In this document: positions 8,404 through 56,106 of the stretch, piece after piece
Layout: each line of letters opens with the position of its first letter
How positions within the stretch are numbered: position 1 is the first letter of the stretch
Assembly (NCBI RefSeq): GCF_001428305.1
Contig: NZ_LMRZ01000001.1
Coordinates: 744,289-808,288, forward strand
Length of the DNA: 64,000 nucleotides
From: Janibacter sp. Soil728
Lineage (GTDB): Bacteria > Actinomycetota > Actinomycetes > Actinomycetales > Dermatophilaceae
Reading direction: 5' to 3'
Position numbers and translations under genes: made by a program
The notes under the pieces: model-generated
The model's database searches: none
The model's input: the letters and a program-made list of their open reading frames with translations, nothing else
What the model was told of the DNA's origin: nothing

Positions 8404-10089
8404 TCACGCCTCGACGACCACCGGGATGACCAGGGGGTTGCGGCGGTGCTTGCGGCCGGCCCACTGGGTGACGGCACGCCCGATCCGCTTCTCGAGGTCG
8501 ATCGGGTCACCCACCCCGTCTGATGCTGCGGCCGCGAGTGCCTTCTCGATGGACGGGATCGAGTCGTCGAAGAGGGAGTCGTCGGCGCCCAGGCCTCGGG
8601 TGAGGAACTCCGGCGGCTCGACCAGCTTGCCCGTGTCGATGTCGATCAGCGCGAGCACCGTGACGATGCCTTCCTGGCTCAAGGTGACCCGGTCGCGCAG
8701 GCTCTCCTCGGTCACGCCGCCGACATTGCCAGCGGAGACGTAGACGTACCCGGCGCGGACCTTGCCGACGACGTGCACCTCCCCGTCCTGCAGGTCGACC
8801 ACGACGCCGTCGTCGACGACCGGGACGTGCTCGGGGTCGAGGCCGGTGGCGATCGCCAGGTCGGCATTGGCCCGCAGGTGACGCCATTCGCCGTGGACCG
8901 GCATGACATTGCGCGGCTTGACGAGGTTGTAGCAGTAGACGAGCTCGCCCGCGCTGGCGTGGCCGGAGACGTGCACCTTGGCGTTGCCCTTGTGGACGAC
9001 ATTGGCGCCCCGCCGGGTCAGGCCGTTGATGACGCGCGAGATCGAGGTCTCGTTGCCGGGGATGAGCGAGGAGGCCAACAGCACCGTGTCGTTCTCGGCG
9101 ATACGGATCTGGTGGTCACCGCTGGCCATGCGGGACAGCGCGGCCATGGGCTCACCCTGGGAGCCGGTGCACACCAGGGTGACCTTGTTGTCGGGCATCT
9201 TGGACAGCTCCTTGGCGTCGACGACGAGCCCGCGGGGGACGTCGAGATAGCCGAGCTGTCGGGCGATGTCCATGTTGCGCACCATCGATCGGCCGACGAA
9301 GGCGACCTTGCGCTTGTGCCGGTGTGCCGAGTCCAGCACCTGCTGGATGCGGTGGACGTGACTGGCGAAGCTGGAGACGACGACTCGACCCGGGGCCGTG
9401 CGGAAGACGGTCTCGATGGCCGGCGCCAGGTCCTTCTCGGCGGTCGTGAAGCCGGGGACCTCCGCGTTGGTGGAGTCGGTGCAGAAGAGGTCGACGCCCT
9501 CGGCGCCCAGCCGAGCAAAGGCGGGCAGGTCGGTCAGCCGCTTGTCGAGCGGGAACTGGTCCATCTTGAAGTCGCCGGTGTGCAGCAGCAGGCCTGCCGT
9601 GGTGCGCACGGCGACGGCCAGCCCGTCGGGGATGGAGTGGTTGACCGCGATGAACTCGCACCCGAAGGGGCCCAGGTCGCGGTGGTCCCCCTCGACGACC
9701 TCGATTGTCGTGGGCTTGATCCGGTGCTCCTTGAGCTTCGCGGTGATCAGCGCCAGGGTGAGTCGCGACCCGATCAGCGGGATGTTGTTGCGCTGCTTCA
9801 GCAGGTAGGGGACGCCGCCGATGTGGTCCTCGTGCCCGTGGGTCAGGACGATGCCCACGATGTCGTTCATGCGGTCCTTCAGGTAGCTGAAGTCCGGCAG
9901 GATGACGTCGACGCCAGGCTGGTGCTCCTCGGGGAAGAGGACGCCGCAGTCGATCACCAGGATCTTGCCGCGGTGCTCCAGGACCATCATGTTGCGACCG
10001 ACCTCGCCGAGACCTCCCAAGGGGATGACTCGTAGGGCGTCCTTGGCCAGTGCGGGTGGGGAGCCCAGCTCGGGGTGCGGGTGGCTCAT
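8404..10089 (-). CDS. rnj: Ribonuclease J
   Basis: Metallo-beta-lactamase/beta-CASP nuclease with 5'-3' exo- and endonuclease activity in rRNA and mRNA processing. The 561-residue chain has the zinc motif LTHGHEDHIGG (about 83-93), the further ligand motif HTGDFK, the beta-CASP domain with the S..SHVHR and CTGSQGEPMAALSRM segments, and the HVSGHAS motif. The C-terminal about 110 residues form the RNase J dimerisation domain. The ATG at 10089 has AAGGAG six bases upstream. An 18-bp motif shared with the prfC promoter lies 57-74 bases before the start, immediately after merR. Confidence 0.95.
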   Translation of the reverse strand: MSHPHPELGSPPALAKDALRVIPLGGLGEVGRNMMVLEHRGKILVIDCGVLFPEEHQPGVDVILPDFSYLKDRMNDIVGIVLTHGHEDHIGGVPYLLKQRNNIPLIGSRLTLALITAKLKEHRIKPTTIEVVEGDHRDLGPFGCEFIAVNHSIPDGLAVAVRTTAGLLLHTGDFKMDQFPLDKRLTDLPAFARLGAEGVDLFCTDSTNAEVPGFTTAEKDLAPAIETVFRTAPGRVVVSSFASHVHRIQQVLDSAHRHKRKVAFVGRSMVRNMDIARQLGYLDVPRGLVVDAKELSKMPDNKVTLVCTGSQGEPMAALSRMASGDHQIRIAENDTVLLASSLIPGNETSISRVINGLTRRGANVVHKGNAKVHVSGHASAGELVYCYNLVKPRNVMPVHGEWRHLRANADLAIATGLDPEHVPVVDDGVVVDLQDGEVHVVGKVRAGYVYVSAGNVGGVTEESLRDRVTLSQEGIVTVLALIDIDTGKLVEPPEFLTRGLGADDSLFDDSIPSIEKALAAAASDGVGDPIDLEKRIGRAVTQWAGRKHRRNPLVIPVVVEA

Positions 10090-10145
10090 TGATCTCCTTG
10101 GTGTGGGTGTGCGTGCTCGGTGGGGTGTTGACTACTCATGACATT

Positions 10146-10163
10146 ACTCTTACGCAACGGCAG
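10146..10163 (-). promoter_or_regulatory. Shared motif upstream of rnj (candidate MerR site/promoter)
   Basis: The 18-mer ACTCTTACGCAACGGCAG (plus strand) matches ACTCTAACGTTGCGGCAG upstream of prfC at 14 of 18 positions. Read on the minus strand it contains TAAGAG/TTAGAG, which could be a -10 element. The merR gene sits between the two sites, so an autoregulated MerR operator is a plausible reading. Confidence 0.45.
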
Positions 10164-10168
10164 GTTTT

Positions 10169-10555
10169 TCAGCGTGAGATCTGCGCCAGCCGCTGGGTGA
10201 ACGACTCGGCTCGTGCGGTGGCGTCCTTCATCTCGGTCACCTTGGTGAGCGCGTCGTCGCGGATCGCGTCGACCTTCGCTCGGGCTGACGACGCGTCGGC
10301 CGCGTTTGCTGCAGGGTCACCGAGGACATCGAGAGCGTCCACGAGCAGCCGCATCTCCTCGATCGAGAAGCCGAGCGGCTTCATCGGCTTGATCAGCAGC
10401 AGGCGCTCGATGTCAGCGTCGTCGTAGAGGCGAAAGCCGCCATCGGTCCGTGACGAAGGGGTGAGCAGGCCCATCTCCTCGTAGTACCGCAGCGTGCGGT
10501 GCGAGAGTCCGGTGCGGGCGACCACCTCGCCGATCTGGACGGGGGGCTGGTTCAC
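10169..10555 (-). CDS. MerR-family transcriptional regulator
   Basis: 128 residues with an N-terminal winged helix (VQIGEVVARTGLSHRTLRYYEEMGLL, about 7-32), the second MerR helix pair (GGFRLYDDADIERL) and a long C-terminal coiled-coil helix (about 82-125) for dimerisation. There is no cysteine pattern for a metal ligand and no effector domain, so the signal is unknown. The GTG start at 10555 overlaps the prfC stop by four bases (GTGA), so translation is coupled. Matching 18-bp motifs flank the prfC-merR pair and precede rnj. Confidence 0.85.
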   Translation of the reverse strand: MNQPPVQIGEVVARTGLSHRTLRYYEEMGLLTPSSRTDGGFRLYDDADIERLLLIKPMKPLGFSIEEMRLLVDALDVLGDPAANAADASSARAKVDAIRDDALTKVTEMKDATARAESFTQRLAQISR

Positions 10556-12153
10556 GCCCCCACCTCGTCGTCGTCGACGGCGAAGATGGGCGGCAGGCTG
10601 CCGCCGGGCAGCCGCCCGGCGATGGCGTGCATCCGCCAGGTGTCGGCAAACAGCGCGACCACGACGCCGTCGGTCCGCTCGAGCACCTCTGCTCCGCGCT
10701 CGCGATCGACGATCGGCGCTGCCTCGGGAGTGACGCGGCTCGCGACGCTGTAGGCCAGGAGGTCCTGGCTGGCAGGCGCGCCGAACTCGTGCTCGAGACG
10801 GTGGGCCGCGACCTCGAACTGCATCGGCCCGACCGCGGCCAGGACCGGAGCCTGGACTCCGCGTCGGTCGGAGACGAGCACCTGGACGACGCCCTCCTGG
10901 TCGAGCAGCTCGATCCCGCGCCGGAACTGCTTGGCCCGACCCGTGTCGCGGGGCCTGAAGACGGCGAAGTGCTCCGGGGCGAAGCGCGGCAGGCCGGGGT
11001 AGGTGACCGGGCGGGAGTCGTAGAGGGTGTCGCCCACCTGGAGCGCCTGGGCATTGGTCAGGCCGACGACATCGCCGGGGTAGGCCTCGTCGATGGTCTC
11101 GCGCTCCCTGCCGAAGACCGACTGGGCGTACTTCGTCTGGAAGGGACGACCGCTGCGAGCCTGCGTGAGGACAGCGCCCCGCTCGAAGCGTCCGGAGCAC
11201 ACGCGCATGAAGGCCATGCGGTCCCGGTGGGAGGGGTCCATCCCGGTCTGGACCTTGAAGATGAACCCGGAGAAGGGCGCCTCGACCGGCCGCGGCTGCT
11301 TCTTGGTGTCGGTCCAGGCGCTCGGTGGCGGCGCGAGCTCGATCACGGTCTCGAGGAGCTCCGCGACCCCGAAGTTCGCGACCGCCGCGGCGAAGAGGAC
11401 GGGCGTGGTCCGGGCGGCGAGGAACTCGTCCTGGTCATGGGTCTGGCCGGATGCGGCGAGCAGCTCGAACTCCTCGCTGGCCCGCTCCCAGTCGACGCCG
11501 TGACGTTCGGCGGCCTCTGCGGCCGTGAGCGCTTCCCTGACCGCGATCGTGGCTCCGCCGGGCGTACGCGTGAACTCCGTCATCCCACCGGTCTCCGCGT
11601 TGGTCACCCCGCGGAAGTCCCCGGCGATCCCCACGGGCCAGTTCAGCGGCGTGGGCTGGATGCCGAGACGGTCACTGATCTCGTCAAGGAGCGCCAACGG
11701 CTCATGACCGGGCCGGTCCCACTTGTTGATCACCGTGATCACCGGGGTCGCCCGTGCACGGCAGGCCTCGAAGAGCTTGAGCGTCTGCGGCTCCAGCCCC
11801 TTGGCCGCGTCGAGGAGCATGACGGCGCAGTCGACGGCCGACAGGACGCGATAGGTGTCCTCGGAGAAGTCTGCGTGGCCGGGGGTGTCGAGCAGGTTGA
11901 TCACGACGTCCTGGACGCGGAACTGCAGCGCCGCAGACGTGATCGAGATCCCGCGCGCCTGCTCCATCTCGTTCCAGTCGGAGACCACGCCGCGACGCGA
12001 CCCCTTGCCGTGCACGGAGCCGGCCTGGGCGATCGCGTGGGCGTGCAGCGCGAGGGCCTCCGTGAGCGTGGACTTGCCAGCATCTGGGTGGCTGATCACC
12101 GCGAAGGTCCGGCGCCTCGACGCCTCGGTGATCAGGGCATCACTCATCTGCAC
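10552..12153 (-). CDS. prfC: Peptide chain release factor 3 (GTPase)
   Basis: RF3 recycles RF1/RF2 from the ribosome after termination. The 533-residue chain has the G-domain P-loop SHPDAGKSTLTEA (about 21-33), the switch segment with RGISITSAA, DTPGHADF, NKWDRPG, then domain II and the RF3 C-terminal domain (VGPMQFEVAAHRLEHEFGAP). The ATG at 12153 is preceded by GAGGAG. It overlaps merR by four bases. A conserved 18-bp motif embedded in an inverted repeat lies 51-75 bases upstream. Confidence 0.95.
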   Translation of the reverse strand: MQMSDALITEASRRRTFAVISHPDAGKSTLTEALALHAHAIAQAGSVHGKGSRRGVVSDWNEMEQARGISITSAALQFRVQDVVINLLDTPGHADFSEDTYRVLSAVDCAVMLLDAAKGLEPQTLKLFEACRARATPVITVINKWDRPGHEPLALLDEISDRLGIQPTPLNWPVGIAGDFRGVTNAETGGMTEFTRTPGGATIAVREALTAAEAAERHGVDWERASEEFELLAASGQTHDQDEFLAARTTPVLFAAAVANFGVAELLETVIELAPPPSAWTDTKKQPRPVEAPFSGFIFKVQTGMDPSHRDRMAFMRVCSGRFERGAVLTQARSGRPFQTKYAQSVFGRERETIDEAYPGDVVGLTNAQALQVGDTLYDSRPVTYPGLPRFAPEHFAVFRPRDTGRAKQFRRGIELLDQEGVVQVLVSDRRGVQAPVLAAVGPMQFEVAAHRLEHEFGAPASQDLLAYSVASRVTPEAAPIVDRERGAEVLERTDGVVVALFADTWRMHAIAGRLPGGSLPPIFAVDDDEVGA

Positions 12154-12203
12154 TCCTCGGCCGCGGCTCGGCGGCCCTGTCGGTGGTGGTCTGGAACCCA
12201 GCC

Positions 12204-12228
12204 ACTCTAACGTTGCGGCAGAGTTAGA
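12204..12228 (-). promoter_or_regulatory. Inverted-repeat operator/promoter upstream of prfC-merR
   Basis: Arms TCTAAC (12206-12211) and GTTAGA (12223-12228) are separated by 11 bases. The inner 18-mer ACTCTAACGTTGCGGCAG recurs upstream of rnj. The position suits a MerR-type site overlapping the promoter. Confidence 0.5.
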
Positions 12229-12255
12229 CCTGCGCCGCCCCCTTCGTCAGTGGAG

Positions 12256-12651
12256 TCAGCCGAGCGAGGCGAGCAGCTCACCGACGCGACGCTTGATCTC
12301 GTCCCGGATCGGCCGCACGGCTTCGACCCCCTGGCCGGCGGGGTCCTCGAGCTGCCAGTCCTCGTAGCGCTTGCCGGGGAAGATCGGGCAGGCGTCGCCG
12401 CACCCCATCGTGATGACGACGTCGCTGGCCTGCACGGCCTCGGTGGTCAGCACCTTGGGCGACTCGGCGGACAGGTCGATCCCGTCCTCGAGCATCGCGG
12501 CGTGGACCGCCGGGTTGATCGAGTCGGCCGGCGCGGAGCCGGCCGAGCGCACCTCGACGGCGCCCTCGGACAGCACACGGGTGTATGCGGCGGCCATCTG
12601 AGATCGGCCGGCGTTGTGCACGCAGACATAGAGGACGGACGGACGGCTCAT
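12256..12651 (-). CDS. arsC: Arsenate reductase, low-Mr phosphatase fold (mycothiol-type)
   Basis: Reduces As(V) to As(III). The 131-residue chain carries the PTPase loop CVHNAGRS with nucleophile Cys10 and Arg16, and a second Cys pair in GCGDACPIFPGK (Cys84, Cys88). Actinobacterial enzymes of this type use mycothiol/mycoredoxin; whether this one uses mycothiol or the Cys pair plus thioredoxin is inferred, not shown. The ATG at 12651 has AAGGAG upstream and overlaps the acr3 stop by four bases (ATGA). It is the last gene of the arsM-acr3-arsC operon. Confidence 0.9.
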   Translation of the reverse strand: MSRPSVLYVCVHNAGRSQMAAAYTRVLSEGAVEVRSAGSAPADSINPAVHAAMLEDGIDLSAESPKVLTTEAVQASDVVITMGCGDACPIFPGKRYEDWQLEDPAGQGVEAVRPIRDEIKRRVGELLASLG

Positions 12652-13745
12652 CGGTTGGCTCCTTGGTGTGTGGCCTCGACTGCGGACGAAGGGGGTGTGA
12701 ACCGTCGGCGCAGCGCGAGGCTGACGTAGACCAGGCCGACGAGGACGGGGACCTCGATGAGTGGTCCCACGACGCCGGCGAGGGCCTGGCCGCTCGTGGC
12801 GCCGAAGGTCGCGATCGCCACCGCGATCGCCAGCTCGAAGTTGTTGCCCGAGGCGGTGAAGGCGAGGGTCGTCGTGCGCTCGTAGGACATGCCGAGCAGC
12901 CGGCCGGTGGCGTAGCCGATGCCCCACATGATCGCGAAGTAGGCGAGCAGCGGCAGTGCGATCCGGGCGACGTCGCCGGGCTTGGAGGTGATCGCCTCAC
13001 CCTGCAGGGCGAAGAGCAGCACGATGGTGAAGAGCAGCCCGTAGAGGGCCCACGGGCCGATCTTGGGCAGGAAGGACTCCTCGTAGCGCTCACGGCCCCA
13101 TCGGCGCTCGCCGCCCCGACGGGTGAGGTACCCGGCGAGCAGCGGGACCCCGAGGAAGATCAGCACGGACTTGGCGATCTGCCACGCGGAGACGTCGAGG
13201 TCTGCCTGGGCCAGGCCGAGCCAGCCGGGCAGCACCGTGAGGTAGAACCAGCCGAGCGCGGCGAAGGCGACGACCTGGAAGAGCGAGTTGATCGCCACGA
13301 GCACGGCCGCGGCGTCGCGGTCACCGCAGGCCAGGTCGTTCCAGATGATCACCATGGCGATGCAGCGGGCGAGCCCGACGATGATCAGGCCGGTGCGGTA
13401 CTCGGGCAGGTCGGGCAGGAGCAGCCAGGCCAGGGCAAACATCAGGGCCGGGCCGACGATCCAGTTGAGGACGAGCGAGGAGCCGAGCAGGCGTCGGTCG
13501 CTCGTGACGGTGTCGAGCCGGTCGTAGCGGACCTTGGCGAGCACCGGGTACATCATCACGAGCAGACCGATGGCGATGGGCAGCGAGATGCCGTCGATCT
13601 CGATGGCGCTCAGGGCGGTGCCGAGCCCGGGGATGAGCCGGCCGAGGAGCAGCCCGGCGACCATGGCCAGGCCGATCCAGACGGGCAGCCAGCGGTCGAG
13701 GGTGGACAGCCGGGCCGGTGCCTGGGGCTGGGTGGCGGTGGTCAT
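12648..13745 (-). CDS. acr3: ACR3-family arsenite efflux permease
   Basis: Secondary transporter that expels As(III). The 365-residue chain contains about ten transmembrane helices and the conserved Acr3 helix GLARCIAMVIIWNDLACGD, whose cysteine is essential in characterised Acr3 proteins. A second signature, FTASGNNFELAIAVAIATFG, is near the C-terminus. The ATG at 13745 overlaps the arsM stop by one base (TGATG), and the stop overlaps the arsC start by four, so the three genes are tightly coupled. Confidence 0.93.
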   Translation of the reverse strand: MTTATQPQAPARLSTLDRWLPVWIGLAMVAGLLLGRLIPGLGTALSAIEIDGISLPIAIGLLVMMYPVLAKVRYDRLDTVTSDRRLLGSSLVLNWIVGPALMFALAWLLLPDLPEYRTGLIIVGLARCIAMVIIWNDLACGDRDAAAVLVAINSLFQVVAFAALGWFYLTVLPGWLGLAQADLDVSAWQIAKSVLIFLGVPLLAGYLTRRGGERRWGRERYEESFLPKIGPWALYGLLFTIVLLFALQGEAITSKPGDVARIALPLLAYFAIMWGIGYATGRLLGMSYERTTTLAFTASGNNFELAIAVAIATFGATSGQALAGVVGPLIEVPVLVGLVYVSLALRRRFTPPSSAVEATHQGANR

Positions 13746-14566
13746 CAGGCGGCCTTCCGTGCGCGGACGAAGGCGCTGGCGAAGGACCCGTCGAGCGCGT
13801 CGAGCACGCCCTCGAGGGTCCATCCCTGCGGTAGCTCGTCGCCGATGAGTCCGGACATGTCCTCCAGGTCGGTCCGCTCGAAGCGCCGGGTCACCTCGAC
13901 GCTCGCGTCGGCGAAGCCGGCAGCGGTGAGCTTGGTGACGTAGTCCGTGTCGAGCAGCGATCCGGAGACGCAGCCGGTCCACAGGCCGACGATCCCGCGC
14001 AGTGCGTCGGGGATCTCGCGCAGCAGCACGACATCGGAGACGGCGAAGCGGCCGCTCGGGCGCAGCACCCGGTGTGCCTCGCGGATCACGGCGTCCTTGT
14101 CGGGGGAGAGGTTGATGACGCAGTTGGAGATGACGACGTCGACGGACGCGTCCTCCATCGGGATCTCCTCGATCATGCCGCGCAGGAAGCTGGCGTTGTC
14201 GATGCCGGCCTCGGCCTGGTTGCGGCGGGCCAGCTCGAGCATCTCGTCGGTCATGTCGAGCCCGTAGGCGGTGCCGCCGGGCGCGACCCGTCGCGCGGAG
14301 AGCAGGACGTCGAGCCCGCCGCCGGAGCCGAGGTCGAGCACGTCCTCGCCGGGGGAGAGGTCGGCCAGGGCGGTCGGGTTGCCGCAGCCGAGCGAGGCGG
14401 CCAGCGCGGAGTCCGAAGGGGAGTCCGTCCCCTCGTAGAGCCCGATGGTGATCGGGTCGGTCGCGGTGTCACCGCAGCACGCGGAGGCCGTGTCGGGGTC
14501 GAGGGCAGCGCGGGCGGCGGTCGCGTAGCGATCGCGCACGGCGGCGTGGGTGTCCTGCTGGGCCAC
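13745..14566 (-). CDS. arsM: Arsenite S-adenosylmethionine methyltransferase
   Basis: Methylates As(III) to methylated, partly volatile forms. The 273-residue chain begins with a Cys pair (ASACCGD, Cys30-Cys31), has the SAM motif VLDLGSGGGLDVLL, the loop SNCVINLSPDK with a conserved Cys, and WTGCVSGSL with another. These are the four-cysteine positions typical of ArsM. It leads the arsM-acr3-arsC operon and is divergent from arsR, with the operator between them. Confidence 0.92.
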   Translation of the reverse strand: MAQQDTHAAVRDRYATAARAALDPDTASACCGDTATDPITIGLYEGTDSPSDSALAASLGCGNPTALADLSPGEDVLDLGSGGGLDVLLSARRVAPGGTAYGLDMTDEMLELARRNQAEAGIDNASFLRGMIEEIPMEDASVDVVISNCVINLSPDKDAVIREAHRVLRPSGRFAVSDVVLLREIPDALRGIVGLWTGCVSGSLLDTDYVTKLTAAGFADASVEVTRRFERTDLEDMSGLIGDELPQGWTLEGVLDALDGSFASAFVRARKAA

Positions 14567-14581
14567 GGGGTGACTCCTGGT

Positions 14582-14640
14582 TTGATGGTGATCGAATCAA
14601 TCTCGGGGCAAGCATGTCCCCCTGCTTTGACATGTGTCAA
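14582..14640. promoter_or_regulatory. ArsR operator region between arsM and arsR
   Basis: Two inverted repeats lie in the 83-base divergent spacer. One is TTGAT-N9-ATCAA (14582-14600), close to the arsM start. The other is TTGACA-TG-TGTCAA (14627-14640), nine bases before the arsR start, whose TTGACA could also be a -35 element. Both suit ArsR/SmtB-type dimer binding. Confidence 0.65.
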
Positions 14641-14649
14641 GATAGCGCA

Positions 14650-15015
14650 ATGAGCATCCTCGAGTCAGTCCCGCAGGAGCAGGCCGTGACCTGCTGCGGC
14701 CTGGCGACGTCGCCGGTCACGCAGGAGGACGCGGCCCGTCTGGCGCCGGTCTTCAAGGCGCTCGGCGATCCGGTCCGACTGCGCATGGCCAGCCTCATCG
14801 CCGCCCAGCCCGAGGTGTGCGTCTGCGACATCACCCCCGCCTTCGACCTGTCCTCAGGCACGATCTCCCACCACCTCAAGCAGCTGCGCGAGGCCGGCCT
14901 GGTCAGCTGTGAGCGGCGCGGGACCTATGTCTTCTACTGGATCAACCCCGAGGCCCTCGGCGCCCTGTCTGCCCTGCTCGCGGTCTCAGCCCCCGTCCCG
15001 GCCCACGTTCCCTGA
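14650..15015 (+). CDS. arsR: ArsR-family metalloregulator
   Basis: A winged-helix repressor of 121 residues that should release the divergent arsM-acr3-arsC operon when As(III) binds. The recognition region is DLSSGTISHHLKQLREAGLV. Candidate thiol ligands are the Cys pair in TCCGL near the N-terminus and CVCD at the start of the DNA-binding helix. ATG 14650 is preferred over one 36 bases upstream, because that one would place the operator inside the gene. The stop codon (TGA, 15013-15015) is part of a family B repeat (TCCCTGAGG), so the last residues may come from repeat insertion. Confidence 0.9.
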   Translation: MSILESVPQEQAVTCCGLATSPVTQEDAARLAPVFKALGDPVRLRMASLIAAQPEVCVCDITPAFDLSSGTISHHLKQLREAGLVSCERRGTYVFYWINPEALGALSALLAVSAPVPAHVP

Positions 15016-15047
15016 GGAGGCCGCCCGCGGCCGTCTCGAAGGGACGC
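15008..15047. repeat. Family B interspersed repeat overlapping arsR 3' end
   Basis: TTCCCTGAGGAGGCCGCC followed by CGCGGCCGTCTCGAAGGGAC: outer arms TCCCT/AGGGA and inner stem GGCCGC/GCGGCC. The arsR stop codon lies in its first ten bases. Confidence 0.8.
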
Positions 15048-15094
15048 ACCCCACCGCTTTGACGCAGTGCCCTCCGGCGCGGTCCCATGGGGAC

Positions 15095-15949
15095 ATGACC
15101 GACCTCGCGATCGTCGACGCCGCTTCCACCCCGCTCCAGGCCCGGGTGGGGACCAAGTTCGCCTACGGCACCCGCGGCGTCCGAGAGGCGCTGCTCTCCT
15201 TCGCCGTGTCCAACGCGCACGACATCCTCGAGGAGGAGATCCTCATCCATGCCGGCGGCAAGCAGGTCGAGGCTCGTGAGCTCGCCGGCAACCACGGCAC
15301 CCGACTGCACCTCGTCGAGGGCGTCGGCGACGGCTGGCTCGAGGTCACCTACTCCGCGCTCGTCGACATCACCCGCCCCACGGGCGACCAGGTCGGCCCC
15401 GAGATCGACTTCGACCGGTGGGTCTTCACCCGCCCGAGCCGCTACGCCGAGTCCGATCGGCTCGCGCCGATGGCGGCCCAGCTCTTCCCCGACCAGACCG
15501 GCTTCGAGCGGGTCAAGGCGGTGGCGCTCTGGGTCAACACCCACATGTCCTACATCTCGGGGGCGAGCCGCGGGACCGACGGTGCCGTCGACTCGATCCT
15601 GCAGGCGTCCGGCGTCTGCCGCGACTTCGCGCACGTCGTCGTGGCCCTGCTGCGCGCGCTCGGCACACCCGCGAGGCTGGTCTCGGTCTATGCCCCGGGT
15701 CTGCAGCCGATGGACTTCCACGCGGTGGCCGAGGTCTGGGTCGAGGGTGCGTGGCACATCGTCGACGCGACGAGCATGGCTCCGCGCGAGGCGATGGTCC
15801 GCATCGCGACGGGTCGCGATGCGGCGGACACCGCCTTCCTCACGACGCGAGGCGGCCTGACGACCTTCAACCGACAGCAGGTCACTGCGATCCTCACCGA
15901 GGGGCAGATGCCCCTCGAGGACTCGACCGCCCTGGTGCGCCTGGCCTGA
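15095..15949 (+). CDS. Transglutaminase-like cysteine protease-fold protein
   Basis: 284 residues, with an N-terminal beta-rich domain (about 1-110) and a transglutaminase-like core. The catalytic triad is visible as Cys175 (SGVCRDFAH), His209 (MDFHAVAEVW) and Asp224 (WHIVDAT). Such cytosolic proteins are often annotated as transglutaminase family proteins; they may be peptidases or amidases, and the substrate is unknown. It has no signal peptide. The ATG at 15095 directly precedes the conserved N-terminus. It is convergent with the prepilin peptidase, seven bases away. Confidence 0.85.
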   Translation: MTDLAIVDAASTPLQARVGTKFAYGTRGVREALLSFAVSNAHDILEEEILIHAGGKQVEARELAGNHGTRLHLVEGVGDGWLEVTYSALVDITRPTGDQVGPEIDFDRWVFTRPSRYAESDRLAPMAAQLFPDQTGFERVKAVALWVNTHMSYISGASRGTDGAVDSILQASGVCRDFAHVVVALLRALGTPARLVSVYAPGLQPMDFHAVAEVWVEGAWHIVDATSMAPREAMVRIATGRDAADTAFLTTRGGLTTFNRQQVTAILTEGQMPLEDSTALVRLA

Positions 15950-17314: not shown

Positions 17315-17719
17315 ATGCGAAGCACGAGACGCCCCGGAGCAACTTGGCGCGAACGCGGCGCTGCCGCAGTCGAGATGGCCATCGTTCTGCCGCTGTTGTT
17401 GCTCGTCATCGCCGGCATCGTCGACTTCGGCCGGTTTTTCCTGACCGAGATCCAGTTGACCAATGCCGTCCGTGAGGGCGCGCGTGCTGCGGTCATCGGT
17501 GAGACACCCGCCAATATCATCTTGCGGACCCAGACGGCCGCACCCGTGGTCGCAGGCCTGGCCGTGACCACTCCTCAGTTGTGTCCTGGCACCGATGCCG
17601 AGGTCAGGGCTACTGCCGACTTCGACTGGATCCTTCTTGAACCGGCCATGAGCATGTTCGGCGCCGCCGGTGCGCTGCCCGAGGCCAAAGCTACGGCGGT
17701 GATGAGATGCGGTGGTTGA
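17315..17719 (+). CDS. tadE: TadE-like pilus assembly protein
   Basis: 134-residue minor pseudopilin. It has a basic N-terminus, RGAAAVEMAIVLPLLLLVIAG (TadE motif with Glu in the processing region) as its single transmembrane helix, and a short extracytoplasmic part. ATG 17315 is preferred to the GTG six bases upstream because GAGGGG is then correctly spaced. Its 3' end overlaps tadG by 13 bases. Confidence 0.85.
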   Translation: MRSTRRPGATWRERGAAAVEMAIVLPLLLLVIAGIVDFGRFFLTEIQLTNAVREGARAAVIGETPANIILRTQTAAPVVAGLAVTTPQLCPGTDAEVRATADFDWILLEPAMSMFGAAGALPEAKATAVMRCGG

Positions 17720-18993
17720 CCTGTTTGCTCGACCGACTGGCCCCTGGCGCTGACCGCGAGCGCGGCGCCACCGCGACGATCGTCGCGATCCTGCTCTCCG
17801 GCGGCGTCATCATGGGCATGCTCGCCGTGAGTGTCGACCTCGGCAACCTCACCTACGAGCGCCGCCAGGTCCAAAACGGCGCCGATGCAACGTCGATGGC
17901 CCTAGCCGCTGAGTGCGCGGGTGACAAGAGCCTGGGGCAGCCTGCGTGCGACCCCGACGAGGTCGATGACCTGCTCGGTGCCAACTCCCGCGACGGCCTG
18001 AGCCAGTATGACGCGCGGCCCGGTGTACCCGACGGGGCCTGTGCTCGTCCCGGCGTCGCTGGCACCGGCAGCCTGTCGAAGTGTCCGTCCACCGGTGCCA
18101 TCGACGATCTGGGAGAGTGCCCTCCACTGCCCGAGTGGCTCACCAACCAGCCGGCGATCCCTTATGTGGAGACCTACGCTGCGACCGAGGTCGCCGGGGG
18201 CGGGGACAAGCTCTTCCTCCCCTTCTCGCGGGTGCTCGCAGGCGGTGCCTCCGGTGATGCGGGCACGAGTGCTTGTGCACGGGCGGCCTGGGGGCAGCCT
18301 GCAAACTATTCCGCGACGGTCCCACTTACCTTTTCCTCCTGCGAATGGTGGTCGCAGACATCAAACGGAACCAACTACGTCGAAGACGGGCCCTCGGGAG
18401 CCCTGCCTGGTTATGGCGGTGCAGATCAGCCTGCGTGGCCCACGGGTAGAGAAGTCGCCATCCAGTTGCACGATCCAGGCAATGAGACCGAGGACTGCAC
18501 GTGGAATGGCAAGGACACTGCTGGAGGCTTCGGTTGGCTGGATGAGAAAAGCGACGACTGCCAAGCAGAGGTCACGGACAACGGATGGGCGCACACAGAT
18601 ACAGGCAACAACGTGCCGCAGCCGTGCAAGGACGTCCTGCCCACCCTGTGGAAGACCGTCATCGAGATCCCCGTCTTCGACTGCATCGTCGATTCGAAGG
18701 ATGAGCCGGCCTCCGTGCCGACCGACCCAGCAGCGTGTGATCCCACTCAGAAGCAGTCGAGCGGTAACAACACCTGGTACCACATCGAGGGTTGGGCGAA
18801 GTTCTACGTCAGTGGATACACCTTGCCCGGCGCCACTGAGTCCAGCGTGATGCCCGGCGGGCTGACCTGCGGAAGCGGCGGCAAGTGCATCACTGGTTGG
18901 TTCCTGACCGGGCAGCTTTCCGGTTCTCCAGATATCGCGCCACCGGGCAGCGGGACCGACTTTGGTACCTACGTCGTCAAGCCTGCGGGCTGA
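17707..18993 (+). CDS. tadG: TadG-like Tad pilus protein, Cys-rich ectodomain
   Basis: 428 residues. The N-terminal Tad module (DRERGATATIVAILLSGGVIMGMLAVSVDLG, split here only by the helix) anchors the protein, and YERRQVQNGADATSMALA is the typical TadG continuation. The remaining about 360 residues are extracytoplasmic and contain about 15 cysteines and many aromatic residues, unlike simple TadG proteins, suggesting a disulfide-stabilised surface domain. Codon use from about 18300 is a little less GC-rich than its neighbours. Possible role: pilus tip or adhesin; this is inference. Confidence 0.8.
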   Translation: MRWLTCLLDRLAPGADRERGATATIVAILLSGGVIMGMLAVSVDLGNLTYERRQVQNGADATSMALAAECAGDKSLGQPACDPDEVDDLLGANSRDGLSQYDARPGVPDGACARPGVAGTGSLSKCPSTGAIDDLGECPPLPEWLTNQPAIPYVETYAATEVAGGGDKLFLPFSRVLAGGASGDAGTSACARAAWGQPANYSATVPLTFSSCEWWSQTSNGTNYVEDGPSGALPGYGGADQPAWPTGREVAIQLHDPGNETEDCTWNGKDTAGGFGWLDEKSDDCQAEVTDNGWAHTDTGNNVPQPCKDVLPTLWKTVIEIPVFDCIVDSKDEPASVPTDPAACDPTQKQSSGNNTWYHIEGWAKFYVSGYTLPGATESSVMPGGLTCGSGGKCITGWFLTGQLSGSPDIAPPGSGTDFGTYVVKPAG

Positions 18994-19011
18994 TCAAGAA
19001 ATGAGTCACGC

Positions 19012-19836
19012 ATGAAGCGTCGCGTCATCGCCATCGTCGCCGCAGTCGCCCTGGCGATCGCGGGCGCCGGCCTGATCCTCGTCTACGTCAAGGGCGCGGA
19101 CTCCCGTGCCCTGGCCGGAGCCCAACCGGTCTACGTCTACGTCGCGGACAAGCTGGTCCCGGCGGGCACGACGCTCAAGGACGCGCAGCGCACCGAGCTG
19201 ATCTCCCGGACCAAGGTGGCCGAGGGTGCCCGCCCGGCAGGTGCGATCGATTGGGTGGGCCCGGACAACAACGCGCTCCTCGCGCTCAGCGACGTGCAGC
19301 CGGGCGAGTTCCTCATGGAGGCCCGATTTGGCACCACCCCCATCGGGGAGAAGGCGATCGAGGTCCCCGCTGGCAAGATCGCGATGTCCGTCGAGCTGTC
19401 CGACCCGGCGCGGGTCGGCGAGTTCGTCACCCCCGGCTCGCACATCGCCATCTATGCGACGCATAAGATCAAGCTCGTCGGTGAGGACAAGACGGTCAAG
19501 CAGCTCAATGAGCTCGACATCACTGGCACGAGCACCCTGCTGCCCGACGTCCAGGTCATCGCCATGGGCACCCAGCCGCTGGCGGCGCCGGTCAAGGCGC
19601 AAACCGATGAGGAGAAGTCCTCGGCCAACGGTGCCAACAACACGGCCGTGAGCTTCCTCGTCACCGTCGCGGTGACGCCAAAGGACGCGCCGCGTCTCGC
19701 CCATGGCATCACCGAGTACACCCTCTACGCCGGCCTGCGCGGTCCTGACGTCAAGATCTCCGAGGACGACGGTGCCAACGACCTCGATGTCTTCGGCAAG
19801 GACCCCGCCAGCCTGCTCAAGACGGTGCAGCAGTGA
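19012..19836 (+). CDS. cpaB: Flp pilus assembly protein CpaB (SAF domain)
   Basis: 274 residues: one N-terminal transmembrane helix, then an SAF/CpaB domain (VYVYVADKLVPAGTTLKD, about 43-60, continuing to about 105) and an RcpC-like domain (about 120-250) with AIYATHKIKLVG. It likely forms the periplasmic/wall-side channel part of the Tad system. Its stop overlaps the next gene by four bases (GTGA). Confidence 0.85.
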   Translation: MKRRVIAIVAAVALAIAGAGLILVYVKGADSRALAGAQPVYVYVADKLVPAGTTLKDAQRTELISRTKVAEGARPAGAIDWVGPDNNALLALSDVQPGEFLMEARFGTTPIGEKAIEVPAGKIAMSVELSDPARVGEFVTPGSHIAIYATHKIKLVGEDKTVKQLNELDITGTSTLLPDVQVIAMGTQPLAAPVKAQTDEEKSSANGANNTAVSFLVTVAVTPKDAPRLAHGITEYTLYAGLRGPDVKISEDDGANDLDVFGKDPASLLKTVQQ

Positions 19837-33547: not shown

Positions 33548-33574
33548 CCGCATCTCCTTGAGGTCGTGCGGTTC
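33548..33574. repeat. Family D interspersed repeat, isolated copy
   Basis: Contains CATCTCCTTGAGGTCGTG with flanking CG...CG, the same 22-base core found twice at the start of cydC (42261 and 42291). It is an imperfect palindrome (CGCA...TGCG outside, CCT-TG-AGG inside). Confidence 0.75.
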
Positions 33575-33583
33575 TCGAGATGA

Positions 33584-33619
33584 CGAAGGGGGTCCGACCA
33601 GCTGGCCGGACCCCCTTCG
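33584..33619. terminator. Hairpin terminator downstream of the second MMPL gene
   Basis: Perfect 13-bp stem CGAAGGGGGTCCG / CGGACCCCCTTCG with a 10-base loop, 12 bases after the MMPL stop on the minus strand. Uses the CGAAGGG arm seen in other terminators here. Confidence 0.8.
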
Positions 33620-33630
33620 CTCTCGTGGTG

Positions 33631-36683: not shown

Positions 36684-36707
36684 CTGCATTGCCCTATGGC
36701 AATGCAG
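36684..36707. repeat. Family A palindrome upstream of tetR
   Basis: CT-GCATTGCCCTATGGCAATGC-AG, a perfect palindrome with arms of ten bases around CTAT, 13 bases beyond the operator pair. Same family as the cydC and cydD copies. Confidence 0.85.
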
Positions 36708-40184: not shown

Positions 40185-40609
40185 CCGGTGGAGTCTGCCG
40201 CACCCCGTCCGCGACGACGGCGGGGACGGTCTCCCTTCGCCTCGACGTCGGCCATCGCGGTCCGGACGGCGTCGAGGTCGTCGGCGCTCGCCTCGGAGAG
40301 GAAGTGCAGGATCGCGGCCTGCCGGTCCGCGCTGCTCAGGTCGTGAAGCGGGCTGCGCATGGCCTGCGCGGTGAGGGACTCACGAGTGGACGCCGGCCGG
40401 TAGCGCCAGGCGCGCCCGTCGCGCTCGCGGGTCGTCACTCCCTTGACCTCGAGGCGGGAGAGCACGGTCATGACGGTCGTGTAGGCGAGGTCGCGGCCGG
40501 TGAGCCGGTCGGAGACCTCGCGGACGGTCAGTCCGGTGCCGGCCTCGTCGGCCCACAGCACGTCCATGATCGCCTGCTCGAGGTCACCCAGCGATGCTTT
40601 GGTGGGCAC
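40181..40609 (-). CDS. blaI: BlaI/MecI/CopY-family repressor
   Basis: 142 residues. Winged helix LGDLEQAIMDVLWADEAG...TVREVSDRL, then AYTTVMTVLSRLEVKGVTTRERDGRAWRY in the recognition part, and a C-terminal dimerisation helix. A basic tail (RPRRRRGRG) is unusual. The GTG start at 40609 lies 26 bases inside the end of cydC, with AAGGAG nine bases upstream. M. tuberculosis BlaI is reported to control energy genes besides blaC, so linkage to cyd is not absurd. Confidence 0.88.
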   Translation of the reverse strand: MPTKASLGDLEQAIMDVLWADEAGTGLTVREVSDRLTGRDLAYTTVMTVLSRLEVKGVTTRERDGRAWRYRPASTRESLTAQAMRSPLHDLSSADRQAAILHFLSEASADDLDAVRTAMADVEAKGDRPRRRRGRGAADSTG

Positions 40610-42320
40610 GGTGGCTCGCTCCTTCCTTCTCGATCGTCACGATGCGGTCCATGCGGTCCAGGCCGACCCCGTGGTGGGTCACCATGATCACCGACCGGTC
40701 GCCGGCGTGCTGCAGCAGGTCGGTGATGACGGCCTCGGCGGTCGGGTGGTCGAGGTGCGCGACCGGCTCGTCGAGCAGGATCACCGGCCGTCCGCTGGCG
40801 ATCGCGCGGGCGATGGACAGCCGGGCCCGCTCGCCCCCCGAGATGCCCAGGCCGCCAGACCCCAGACGACTGTCGAGACCGTGTGGGAGTCCGGCGAACC
40901 ACGTGCCCAGCCCCGCCCGACGAAGGGAGTCGACCAGCCCCTCGTCGTCGGCCTCCGGTGCGGCGAGGGCCAGGTTGGCGCGCAGGGTCGCGGCGAGGAC
41001 GTGCGGCTCGTCGTCCACGATGGCGAAGAGCGCACGCACGTCGGTCAGGTCGCGGTCGGTGACGTCGGTGCCGTCGATCGTGTAGCTCCCACCGCTCGGG
41101 TCGAGGTGCCGGGCGAGGACGGCGAGGGCGGTCGACTTGCCGCTGCCGTTGGGGCCGACGAGCGCGATCCGGGCGCCCGGATCGACGGCCAGGTCGAGGG
41201 GGCCGAGGTCGGTGCGCCCGGGGAGCCAGCCGGCGGTGAGGCCGCGCAGCTCCAGCCGCGGCGCGTGGTCCAGACCCTGCATTGCCCTAGGGCAATGCAC
41301 ACCTGGCGAGGCCGAAGGGGGGATCCCCCCGGCTACTCCGTGGGCGACGGCCAGCTCCTGGTCGAGCAGCTCGTCAAGGCGCTGCTGGCAGGCGCGGGCC
41401 CGGGCGTGGGCGCGGGTGGCGTCGGTGAGGACTCCGAGGGTTTCGCCGGTCGCGACGGGGGCGAGGACGAGCAGGGCCATGACGGGGGTGCTCGCGCCGG
41501 AGGTGGCGGCGAGGGCTGCAGAGACGAGAGCGCCGACGCCGGTGATGATGAGCACCGCTGCGGCAGAGATGGATCGGCCGCGCGCCTGGCGAGTGACTGT
41601 GGCATGCAGCGTGTCGTGGGCGGTGGTCAACCACCCGGTGGCCGTCGCCGTGCCCCCGATGGAGCGCAGCTCGTCTGCGTGGTCGGCGCTCAGCTGGGCG
41701 ATGCGGGCGACCTCGGCGCGGGCCGCGAGCACCTCGGTCTGTGCGTGTGACTCGAGGCGGTCGGCGAAGGCGGCGACCACGGCGGTGGCGGCGAGCATGC
41801 CTGCGATGACCAGACCGACCCTCGGGTCGACGAGCGCGGTGAGGGCGGCGGAGGTGATGCCGGCGAGGAGTGCGGCGATCGCCGGGACCGTGACCCTGAC
41901 CGATGCTTCGACGACGTCGGTCAGGTCGTCGACGACGCCGGTGAGCAGGTCGGCGCGGCCACGGGAGCCGAGCCTGGCCGGGGTGAGGGGGACGAGGGCG
42001 GCATAGGTCCGGGTGCGCCGCTCGGCGAGGTCGCCGAGGGCGACGTCGTGGCTGCGCAGGCGCTCCCAGTAGCGGAAGAGGGGACGTGCGAGACCGAAGG
42101 TGCGCACGGCGACGATCGTCGTCAGCAGCAGCATGATCTGCGGGCGCTGGTCGGCGCGGACGATGAGCCAGCCCGAGGTCGTCGTCAGGGCGATGCCTGA
42201 GGCGGTCGCGATCCCACCGAGAAGACCGGCCATGATCAGCCCGCGGCTGAGTCCCAGAAGCCGCATCTCCTTGAGGTCGTGCGCACCCGGACGCATCTCC
42301 TTGAGGTCGTGCGCACTCAT
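40584..42320 (-). CDS. cydC: Thiol reductant ABC exporter subunit CydC, with repeat-derived segments
   Basis: Half of the CydDC heterodimer that exports cysteine/glutathione and is needed for bd oxidase maturation. 578 residues: a six-helix membrane domain (about 22-310), then an ATPase domain with Walker A GPNGSGKST (about 388), signature LGISGGERARLS and Walker B VILLDEP. The first 20 residues are two family D repeat units (AHDLKEMR twice), and GVHCPRAMQ (about 340-348) is a family A palindrome in the inter-domain linker. The ATG overlaps the cydD stop by four bases. Confidence 0.9.
   Translation of the reverse strand: MSAHDLKEMRPGAHDLKEMRLLGLSRGLIMAGLLGGIATASGIALTTTSGWLIVRADQRPQIMLLLTTIVAVRTFGLARPLFRYWERLRSHDVALGDLAERRTRTYAALVPLTPARLGSRGRADLLTGVVDDLTDVVEASVRVTVPAIAALLAGITSAALTALVDPRVGLVIAGMLAATAVVAAFADRLESHAQTEVLAARAEVARIAQLSADHADELRSIGGTATATGWLTTAHDTLHATVTRQARGRSISAAAVLIITGVGALVSAALAATSGASTPVMALLVLAPVATGETLGVLTDATRAHARARACQQRLDELLDQELAVAHGVAGGIPPSASPGVHCPRAMQGLDHAPRLELRGLTAGWLPGRTDLGPLDLAVDPGARIALVGPNGSGKSTALAVLARHLDPSGGSYTIDGTDVTDRDLTDVRALFAIVDDEPHVLAATLRANLALAAPEADDEGLVDSLRRAGLGTWFAGLPHGLDSRLGSGGLGISGGERARLSIARAIASGRPVILLDEPVAHLDHPTAEAVITDLLQHAGDRSVIMVTHHGVGLDRMDRIVTIEKEGASHRAHQSIAG
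41278..41299. repeat. Family A palindrome inside cydC linker
   Basis: T-GCATTGCCCTAGGGCAATGC-A, a perfect palindrome read in frame as HCPRAMQ on the gene's strand. Eighteen bases further on, a GGGGGGATCCCCCC palindrome (41317-41330) follows in the same linker. Confidence 0.9.
42261..42317. repeat. Family D repeats, two tandem units forming the cydC N-terminus
   Basis: Two 27-base units at 42261-42287 and 42291-42317, period 30, each with CATCTCCTTGAGGTCGTG. Read from the minus strand they encode AHDLKEMR twice. The same core occurs at 33548 outside any gene. Confidence 0.9.
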
Positions 42321-44038
42321 CGGGTCACCGCCTGCTGGCCGAGGCGGACGTGGTGGTTGGCCCGAGCCGCGAGGTCGGGCTGGTGGCTGACCGCGATGAC
42401 CGTGCGGGTGGCGGCGAGGCGGGTGATGGTGTCTCCGATCGTGGCCGCCGACTCCGGGTCGACGTGGGCGGTCGGTTCGTCGAGCAGGACCACGGGCGAA
42501 GGGGAGAGCAGCGCCCGGGCGAGGACGAGCCGGGCGCGCTGGCCGGCTGACAGTCCGAAGCCGTCGTCGCCGAGGGGGCTGTCGACGCCCAGGGGGAGCG
42601 TGGCGATGGCCTCATGGAGTCCGACCTCGCGCAGCGCCTGCCAGACATCGGTGGACTCGGCCGGGCCGGCGATCGTCAGGTTGGCGCGCAGGGTGCCGGC
42701 GCCGAGGAAGGGGCGCTGCGTCACCAGGTGCACCTCGGGTGCGCTGACCTCTCCACGGTCGGGTCGGCGGATACCGGCGATGACCTCGAGCAGGGTGGTC
42801 TTGCCGCACCCCGACGGCCCGGTGATGACGGTCAGCCCGCGGCCGGCGACGAGGTCGACGCCCGCCAGGACCGTCCGCTCCGTGCCGGGATAGCTGTAGT
42901 CCACCCCGGCGAGCGAGACGGTGCCGGGCAGGCCGAAGGGGGCACCCCCCTTCGCTCCCTGCATTGCCATAGGGGAATGCACGTTCTCTTGCATTGCCAT
43001 AGGGGAATGCACGTCTTCTTGCATTGCCATAGGGGAATGCGCGTCTTCCTGCATTGCCATAGGGGAATGCGGGTCGAGGTCGGCAAGGATCTCGTCGAGG
43101 GCGGCGGCCCCGTCTGCGGCGGAGTGGAACTCGGTGCCCACCCGGCGGATCGGCCAGTACGCCTCGGGCGCGAGCAGGATCGCGGTGAGCCCGATGAGCA
43201 GGTCCATCGACCCGGTGGTCAGGCGCAGGCCGACGACCACGGCGACGATCGCGACCGAGATCGTCGCGAGCAGCTCGAGGGCCGCAGCGGACATGAAGGC
43301 GAGTCGCAGCGTGCGCATCGTCGCCCGGCGATGACGCTGGCTGACCTCGCCGATGACCTCGACCTGGCGCTCGGCCCGGCCGTAGCTGACGAGCGTCGGC
43401 AGTCCGCGCATGACGTCGAGGAAGTGACCCGACAGATCGCGAAGGGAGTCCCACCGCCGCTCCGTGTCCTCTTGCGTCGTCGCCCCGATGAGTGCGGCAA
43501 AGAGCGGGAGGAGCGGCACGGTGAGGATCACGACGAGCGCGCTCGGCCAGTCCACGACGAGCAGGCAGGCGATGGCCAGCGGCGGGACCACGGCGGCCGA
43601 GACGAGCGCCGGCAGGTACTTCGCGACATAGGGCTCGACCGCACTCGTGCCCTGCGTCGCGAGGGTGAGCGCCCTGTCGCGAGAGGGCGGTGTCCTGAGG
43701 TGCGACGAAGGAGCCTCGAAGGGGCGTTGGTGGATCGTGCGCTGTGACCACGCCGCGATCAGCTGCTCGCGCAGGTGGGTTGCCACCACCGTGCCGGCGC
43801 GGGCCGCGATGGCTTCCGAGGCCGCCCCGAGCAGGGCGCGCACCGCGAAGAGGCCACCCGTCCAGACCATCGGTGCGACCAGGTCCTGGCCGCGCACCAC
43901 GGACACCACGAGGACCGCCAGGGCGAAGGCGGTCCCGATCGTCGCTATCCCTTGGGCCACACCGATGCCCGCGAGGGCCGCGACCGGCCTGCGGGTGGCT
44001 GGGACCACCCGCAGGATGCGCGGATCGAAGGGCCTCAT
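42317..44038 (-). CDS. cydD: Thiol reductant ABC exporter subunit CydD, with in-frame repeat array
   Basis: 573 residues: a six-helix membrane domain (about 10-310), then an ATPase domain with Walker A GPSGCGKTT (about 407), signature FGLSAGQRARLV and Walker B VVLLDEPTAHVD. Residues about 322-360 are four 10-residue units (HSPMAMQED and variants) coded by a tandem family A array, followed by a CGAAGGGGG/CCCCCTTCG hairpin. ATG 44038 is two bases after the cydB stop. Confidence 0.9.
   Translation of the reverse strand: MRPFDPRILRVVPATRRPVAALAGIGVAQGIATIGTAFALAVLVVSVVRGQDLVAPMVWTGGLFAVRALLGAASEAIAARAGTVVATHLREQLIAAWSQRTIHQRPFEAPSSHLRTPPSRDRALTLATQGTSAVEPYVAKYLPALVSAAVVPPLAIACLLVVDWPSALVVILTVPLLPLFAALIGATTQEDTERRWDSLRDLSGHFLDVMRGLPTLVSYGRAERQVEVIGEVSQRHRRATMRTLRLAFMSAAALELLATISVAIVAVVVGLRLTTGSMDLLIGLTAILLAPEAYWPIRRVGTEFHSAADGAAALDEILADLDPHSPMAMQEDAHSPMAMQEDVHSPMAMQENVHSPMAMQGAKGGAPFGLPGTVSLAGVDYSYPGTERTVLAGVDLVAGRGLTVITGPSGCGKTTLLEVIAGIRRPDRGEVSAPEVHLVTQRPFLGAGTLRANLTIAGPAESTDVWQALREVGLHEAIATLPLGVDSPLGDDGFGLSAGQRARLVLARALLSPSPVVLLDEPTAHVDPESAATIGDTITRLAATRTVIAVSHQPDLAARANHHVRLGQQAVTR
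42960..43071. repeat. Four-copy family A tandem array in cydD
   Basis: Four units of GCATTGCCATAGGGGAATGC (at 42960, 42990, 43020, 43050) at a 30-base period, so each adds ten residues without breaking the frame. The eight-base joins (ACGTTCTCT, ACGTCTTCT and similar) are nearly identical. Confidence 0.95.
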
Positions 44039-54452: not shown

Positions 54453-54518
54453 TGCATTGCCCTATGGCAATGCACGCGGCCCCCCGACCGTTCGTCTGCA
54501 TTCCCCTATGGCAATGCA
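54453..54518. repeat. Family A palindromes, pair at the 3' side of the AbiEi/DUF559 gene
   Basis: GCATTGCCCTATGGCAATGC core at 54453-54474 and GCATTCCCCTATGGCAATGC core at 54497-54518, 22 bases apart. The second is preceded by GACCGTTCGTCT, also found before the copy at 55617. Confidence 0.9.
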
Positions 54519-55573: not shown

Positions 55574-55638
55574 TGCATTCCCCTATGGCAATGCGCGATT
55601 CCCTCGACCGTTCGTCTGCATTGCCATAGGGCAATGCA
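55574..55638. repeat. Family A palindromes, pair at the 5' side of the AbiEi/DUF559 gene
   Basis: GCATTCCCCTATGGCAATGC core at 55574-55595 and GCATTGCCATAGGGCAATGC core at 55617-55638, again about 21 bases apart and with GACCGTTCGTCT before the second. Confidence 0.9.
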
Positions 55639-56084: not shown

Positions 56085-56106
56085 TGCATTGCCCTAGGGC
56101 AATGCA
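56085..56106. repeat. Family A palindrome upstream of the holin-like gene
   Basis: T-GCATTGCCCTAGGGCAATGC-A, perfect palindrome, 30 bases before the holin-like start and 180 bases before the E1alpha start. Confidence 0.9.

Follow-up and report, generated by a model that had tools for sequence, protein, structure and literature searches.

The DNA analysed, hereafter the window, is a stretch of 64,000 nucleotides from Janibacter sp. Soil728. Its minus strand carries the cydD coding sequence (42317..44038), whose 573-residue product matches TIGR02857 with an E value of 1.2e-139. Within cydD, at 42961..43070 (minus strand), a scan of the window located four tandem units of 20 bp each, which start at 42961, 42991, 43021 and 43051 and therefore have a period of 30. 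All four are exact copies of GCATTGCCATAGGGGAATGC, an imperfect palindrome with 8 of its 10 pairs matching that belongs to the family termed type A below. No match to GCATTGCCATAGGGGAATGC with up to 3 mismatches was obtained in 100 dinucleotide shuffles of the window. The array is read in frame as four HSPMAMQ motifs (residues 324–360) and sits between the ABC_membrane (30–279) and ABC_tran (402–524) domains. The solved CydD chain 8ipq_B aligns to residues 32–328 and 399–567, on either side of the array, and has 22 residues between its two aligned stretches. The in-frame tandem palindromes that a preliminary description had placed in the CydD inter-domain linker are thus confirmed as exact copies at a period of 30.

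A second in-frame insertion is located elsewhere in CydD, at window positions 43673–43726 (residues about 105–122), with the motif RPFEAPSSHLRTPPSRDR at 43689–43722. It is missing from most relatives aligned, and J. anophelis has a similar, shifted one. The 16-bp core of RPFEAPSSHLRTPPSRDR recurs in stretches L090 (three times), L091 and L261, and the motif probably represents another repeat family.

The cydC coding sequence (40584..42320, minus strand, 578 residues, TIGR02868) contains one type A unit in its linker (41279..41298, minus strand), read in frame as HCPRAMQ at residue 342. At the CydC N-terminus, two units of a different palindrome, type C (GCATCTCCTTGAGGTCGTGC, period 30), start at 42263 and 42293 (42263..42312, minus strand) and are read in frame as HDLKEMR twice. 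Neither the CydC linker unit nor these type C units were part of the preliminary description. In the relative G061, the stretch matching the CydC N-terminus has five type C units (up to 3 mismatches). The CydC linker of G061 (L195, opposite window 41279) has an unrelated tandem repeat of the GAGGAGGTC type, compared with the one type A unit here. Another type C unit (33550..33569, plus strand) lies shortly 5' of a CGAAGGGGG..CCCCCTTCG inverted repeat. Inverted repeats of CGAAGGGGG and CCCCCTTCG recur beside arrays in several species (in the window at 33580–33620 and 42930–42955) and also enclose the G064 palindrome at their centre; they are perhaps terminator stems. Rfam models gave no match to the window at gathering scores.

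Type A also occurs outside genes in the window, as had been described: single intergenic copies were found by the window scan at 36686..36705 and 56086..56105, and pairs lie at 54454..54517 (spacing 44, between convergent genes) and 55575..55637 (spacing 43). No type A copy was seen at 56086 in the relatives compared there. Altogether, the window has 11 palindrome places when up to 3 mismatches to the relaxed core are allowed, and 16 strand matches in the type A scan.

Copy number within the genome and the genus

The whole genome contains about 147 type A copies at up to 2 mismatches, and the reversed control pattern yields 0. Type A was found in 9 of 16 Janibacter genomes, with 145, 103, 92, 23, 14, 6, 4, 2 and 1 copies, and in none of 170 other genomes of the family; the repetition and the restriction to the genus are thus directly visible. 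Genome contigs held at least 76 stretches with the exact type A pattern. Among the matches listed, 66 stretches are in J. terrae, J. indicus and J. anophelis, and 10 further ones are in unrelated bacteria, one site each.

Samples of 29–100 kb from nine relatives revealed that some of those poor in type A, or lacking it, have 20-bp palindromes or quasi-palindromes of their own. These are GCATCTCCTTAAGGTCGTGC in G061, GCAACTGCTTAGGCTCCTGC in G064 and GCARRACCCTAGGGTYTTGC in G063, with further ones in G058 and G053; the samples of G052, G055, G056 and G057 showed no prominent one. The pattern common to the families is GCANNNSCNTANGSNNNTGC, a relaxed form of the symmetry. Its matches number 144 (this genome), 177, 170, 128, 115, 88, 72, 66, 48, 28, 16, 11, 9 and 8 in 14 Janibacter genomes, and 2 and 1 in the remaining two, G055 and G056, counts that leave out palindromes with other centres such as CCGG. 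G060, a close relative of this genome, has 8 matches, G057 has 66 and G052 has 11, many of those listed for the latter two being of the G064 type. Elsewhere, GCANNNSCNTANGSNNNTGC matches 0–4 times in the 170 other family genomes and 0–6 times in another 362 genomes from the order.

Janibacter genomes appear to have been colonised by a family of very small symmetric DNA elements, of which many species have a version of their own. In a title-level search of the open-access literature, no such elements were found described for Janibacter or the order to which it belongs. The preliminary description had suggested that the palindrome is mobile or amplifying and that flexible linkers tolerate it. 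The range of type A from 0 to 145 copies within the genus and the unit numbers that vary between species support that suggestion, and it is from this distribution that movement of the palindromes may be deduced.

Unit structure, spacing and placement

Each unit is a dyad-symmetric site of 20 bp, GCA-N3-SC-(4 bp)-GS-N3-TGC, in some cases flanked by arms of about 11 bp; with complementary arms it extends to at most about 54 bp. Computed fold energies are −12.6 kcal/mol for the perfect type A 20-mer, −8.0 for the CydD unit and −57.5 for one copy with 17-bp arms. The G061 unit folds weakly (−4.5 kcal/mol), yet beats most shuffles (z −2.7), and shuffles of the G064 unit fold as well as the unit itself (z 0.05). 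Thus, hairpin stability is not common to all families; what they have in common is dyad symmetry at the ends and centre. Flank complementarity exceeded that of permutations, with a mean arm of 3.8 bp versus 1.9 bp for 28 single copies (largest of 500 permutations, 3.1) and of 2.2 versus 1.2 for 110 array copies (largest permutation, 1.6). Simple insertion into pre-existing hairpins was considered and rejected, because the empty sites in the relatives compared are without the same arms.

Neighbouring units are regularly spaced. Over all species and families, 119 of 206 spacings are 30–32 bp and 65 are 41–43 bp, the remainder being 40 or 44–46 (10), 27–28 (2), 33–39 (2), 51–55 (3) and 62–63 bp (5). 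With each value counted once per array (n = 148), the Rayleigh R is 0.81 at 10.5 bp, compared with 0.24 or less in 5000 smoothed nulls, and R peaks at a period of 10.9 bp (0.82). Intergenic spacings alone (n = 126) yield R values of 0.795 at 10.5 bp and 0.801 at 11 bp, with class means of 31.3, 42.2, 52.7 and 62.3; 6 of the 126 exceed 46 bp. The spacing is quantised whatever the sequence of the palindrome, in a test whose null addresses clustering and does not imply the helix as its cause. Helical phase fits the spacing, as would be expected of a protein that contacts duplex DNA from one side. Arms of a fixed 11 bp fit it too: because the best period is 10.9 bp and the intergenic value at 11 bp is slightly above that at 10.5 bp, such arms could alone give 31 and 42 bp. 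Spacers of 41–44 bp exceed their shuffles in self-complementarity in J. terrae, J. indicus and G063, but not in this genome or G064.

Fifty-seven of 75 arrays were called intergenic using gene calls from a home-made codon score rather than a standard gene finder. This tally includes one coding array (as '++'), since the codon score missed the coding array of L111. Twelve of the 75 overlap a predicted gene end and were counted neither way. Convergent gaps hold 34 of the 57 intergenic arrays, compared with 19 of 85 background gaps (Fisher 9e-6), and divergent gaps hold 2 of 57, compared with 22 of 85 (Fisher 4e-4), where the background gaps come from the window and four stretches picked for holding copies. 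Gene 3' ends are where the site is mostly located.

Larger blocks are associated with some copies. In L233, positions 9423–15658 (G000 C6:51422-57657) comprise a 6.2-kb metabolic gene block that is unmatched there in the six relatives compared and has a palindrome copy at each end, set within similar direct flanks. The ORFs of this insert, between the copies C6:51402 and C6:57658, were named by eye as AraC-type, oxidoreductase, TauD-like, BKACE-like, MFS and hydrolase; no transposase was seen by eye among the called ORFs, and the insert, considered as a parent element, was set aside. At 17612–17735 of the same stretch, about 110 bp has repeated matches, at about 75–85% identity, in several Janibacter genomes searched.

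Seven of the 75 arrays read (138 type A copies) lie in frame in proteins, namely CydD, CydC, a 4'-phosphopantetheinyl transferase (PF01648), SelB, HrpB, a NadB-like flavoprotein and the C-terminus of an IucA/IucC-FhuF protein. The phosphopantetheinyl transferase array has the same design as that of CydD, with four units at period 30. All seven use one frame, HxPxxM, and have spacings of 30 or 42; the coding arrays of other species are spaced by 30, 42 and, in one case (J. indicus), 45. No coding array was found among 30 J. terrae arrays scanned, and the SelB of this species carries one. Seven single coding matches with up to 4–5 mismatches (for example EYYLKERL and GVELKEME; five from G061, one from G064 and one from G053) were dropped by eye as ordinary coding sequence.

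Palindromes at common sites in relatives

The CydD site was aligned in 14 relatives. A clear unit, mostly of another family, is found in seven, two (G060 and G057) have a degenerate-looking unit, and none was recognised in five (G052 with its two cydD genes, G053, G055, G056 and J. terrae). The linker units are HDLKEMR in G061, of HLPGEMR type in J. anophelis, of QNPRVLQ type in G063 and of HLP type, one each, in G064 and G058; those of J. indicus (HCPTAMQ/HCRTAMR) and G062 (HCPRAMQ) are both type A. Residues 326–361 have no counterpart in G060, where the flanks align at 94% and 90% identity. The linker thus differs among the 14 relatives, and unit number differs between species both here and in the NadB-like gene (3/1/0). 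The inference of the preliminary description is supported by these differences; the site is, however, not a simple case of empty versus filled.

The SelB linker contains type A in this genome and J. terrae, HLPRQMQ in G061 and G060, several HFPREMR-type units in G058, HDLKEMR in J. indicus and two kinds within one linker in G063 and J. anophelis. No units were seen in G052, G055, G056, G057 and G062; G053 is divergent, and the alignment left out G064, where the match was split, and G065, which gave none. Different families at common sites, and sequences specific to a lineage, are therefore observed directly.

Intergenic sites present the same picture. Thirteen sites of this genome have both flanks in the G061 DNA compared (80–98% identical): seven hold type C, one holds the same type A copy, one another tandem repeat and four neither. 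The occupancy of 7/13 by the family of G061 itself has a rough binomial chance of 3.5e-5, with the gap density borrowed from this genome. Window sites 54454, 55575 and 56086, in a rearranged part, were left out, and many sites of this genome are without counterpart in the G061 DNA compared. The 500 kb of G061 read contains 27 arrays or singles, some of them chance matches. The site at 36686 is occupied by type A with other arms in J. terrae, by a family of its own in G064, and by type C together with a 1.5-kb insertion in G061. This insertion lies at the centre of the type C palindrome (L194, about 17641–19214) and has an apparent 8-bp duplication, CCTTAAGG, reminiscent of ISL3-type elements, which make 8-bp duplications. 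Sites common to this genome, J. terrae, J. indicus and J. anophelis differ in unit number and arms, and other sites of this genome are empty in one or more relatives.

The cleanest case of unit gain and expansion, judged from the aligned genes, is the NadB-like flavoprotein gene (PF00890/PF02910, named by eye), where both are seen directly. In this genome it holds three units spaced by 42 bp; G061 has a single, slightly decayed unit in the same codons and 12 other relatives have none, G058 being kept among the 12 and G053 (divergent) and G065 (incomplete) left out. The initial gain amounts to a net 18 nt, with the neighbouring sequence changed and no clean target duplication at the site; the expansion resembles tandem duplication of 42 bp. 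In G058 (L273), the assembly has a frame change just after the linker of this gene.

Relation to known repeats and possible origin

The palindromes resemble several known repeat systems. The part of PMC3733652 that treats GTAG REPs with RAYT transposases describes abundant palindromes of 20–40 bp, many of them near one another and oppositely oriented, which lie chiefly between genes that are unidirectional or convergent and occasionally inside genes. The Janibacter palindromes match that description in size class, copy number, mostly intergenic placement and some intragenic copies. However, a Y1 (PF01797) transposase was detected at E ≤ 0.001 in 0 of 16 Janibacter genomes by a search that was positive in 5 of 14 control genomes, and GTAG does not figure among the 12 tag positions found most often in 276 flanks. 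They also differ from GTAG REPs in being spaced in steps of about 10.5–11 bp and in the different families that related species have at the same sites.

The CGTC-tagged REPs, as presented in the relevant part of the same source, include Rickettsia RPE-4 and RPE-6, have no known dedicated transposase and include intragenic copies; the repeats are named there in five phyla, Actinobacteria not among them (PMC3733652). Size class and intragenic copies agree with those described for CGTC REPs. Of 276 flanks in this genome, 42 (about 15%) have a CGTC that stops one base ahead of the core, and CGTC is absent from the flank consensus of J. terrae, J. indicus, G061, G064, G063 and G058. The commonest triplets at the other end, where CGTC REPs have a short unpaired tail of CCA type, are AGG (79/276 flank instances) and AGA (63/276).

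Rickettsia palindromic elements are characterised, in the portion of PMC2229807 that covers them, as in-frame palindromic inserts of 105–146 bp in unrelated conserved proteins. The preliminary description drew this parallel, and it stands for behaviour, the palindromes being in frame in several unrelated protein genes, but not for membership: the unit is 20 bp, arrayed at fixed steps and differs between species of one genus. PARCEL repeats, according to the corresponding part of PMC2996958, are tandem palindromic DNA repeats read in frame, with a 25-residue amphipathic motif, that spread between clades. The coding arrays found here are likewise tandem palindromes read in frame, whereas they repeat every 10 or 14 residues, or every 15 in one J. 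indicus array, and the elements are mostly non-coding and belong to one genus. Of the features of MITEs, a target-site duplication was not found in clean form at the NadB-like site, and no transposase as in a parent transposon was seen by eye in the 6.2-kb insert. The palindromes behave like REP or RPE repeats and are placed with the REP kind; they are not assigned to a known system, because they failed the enzyme and tag tests for REP/RAYT and the length test for RPE.

We consider it moderately probable that the CydD array represents passenger copies of a REP-like repeat that is confined to the genus, non-autonomous, spread in trans by a putative protein and tolerated in linkers; that the passengers are compatible with the reading frame is directly evident. 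This reading draws on the copy number compared with the reversed control, the restriction to the genus, the gain and expansion in the NadB-like gene, the other families at the same places, the quantised spacing and the single frame of the coding arrays. A trans-acting protein, other than a Y1 transposase and probably duplex-binding, would recognise the dyad and drive the formation of copies both at new sites and next to those already present. A shift in its sequence preference would let a new family replace the old one. Copies landing in domain linkers would persist because the HxPxxM frame is open and steps of 30 and 42 bp keep the frame. No mobilising protein or parent element was identified among the genomes searched. 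Recognition of the duplex is argued mainly from one family, the G064 unit folding like its shuffles, as the G061 unit beats most shuffles and type A folds well. Against this reading, the NadB-like gain shows no clean target duplication, 11-bp arms could account for the spacing, and some sites common to several species also fit old inheritance with selection. Use by the host as a terminator or binding site alongside the spread is possible. More tentatively, and with a lesser chance of being correct, the elements may constitute previously undescribed selfish DNA, made of 20-bp duplex sites, that a sequence-specific protein spreads, measuring helical turns and converting old sites to its current sequence, so that each lineage rewrites the same positions in a dialect of its own, even inside proteins.

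Selection on host sites would offer a different origin. Operator-like or nucleoid-protein sites with a spacing fixed for cooperative binding, and with coding copies as by-products, would explain why dyad symmetry is kept while sequence changes, why spacing steps are near helical turns across families and why copies occupy orthologous sites in several species. We nonetheless consider such sites unlikely, since copies of the relaxed pattern number only 2, 1 and 8 in G055, G056 and G060, arrays in SelB, the NadB-like protein, HrpB and the phosphopantetheinyl transferase have no obvious regulatory logic, and only 2 of 57 intergenic arrays are between divergent genes. That same divergent deficit (2/57 versus 22/85), together with the convergent excess (34/57 versus 19/85) and the strong folds of the perfect type A 20-mer and of the copy with 17-bp arms, is what bidirectional terminators or 3'-end mRNA stabilisers, copied as insulators of convergent genes, would produce. 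Such a role would not call for some 145 nearly identical copies or for a sequence particular to each species, the fold of the G064 unit is like that of its shuffles and coding copies are no terminators; as the origin of the repeats it is quite improbable.

Two further explanations were weighed. A DNA-uptake preference combined with transformation could drive species-specific dialects of uptake-signal-like sequences, in agreement with the high copy number, the sequence differences between species, the positions at gene ends and the open frame of coding copies. However, whole 20-bp units in arrays of fixed spacing, with no drift-in by point changes, are not what this process predicts, and a title-level literature search found no paper on uptake-sequence dialects in this group, leaving it very unlikely. 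Ordinary evolution in place, by which an old CydD linker repeat diverged through substitution and slippage with no movement between loci, draws on the clear unit at the CydD site in 7 of 14 relatives and the degenerate-looking one in two. It is contradicted by the identity of the CydD unit to copies elsewhere in the genome; moreover, the units of this genome and G061 differ at 7–8 of 20 positions despite flanks that are 93–94% identical, and the NadB-like gene has new units at a place that is empty in 12 relatives. We regard it as extremely improbable.

What is new here is that relatives have different palindromes, often at the same intergenic sites and in the same CydD and SelB linkers, with spacings of about 31, 42 and, in a few cases, 52 or 62 bp. 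Sites that are the same but differ in palindrome or unit number form a natural series, in which insertion, expansion and replacement can be traced inside housekeeping proteins. Because no Y1 transposase was detected and the spacing is fixed, propagation by a route other than RAYT is indicated. The spread of REPs without a dedicated transposase thereby becomes directly testable, in a genus that has cultured type strains.
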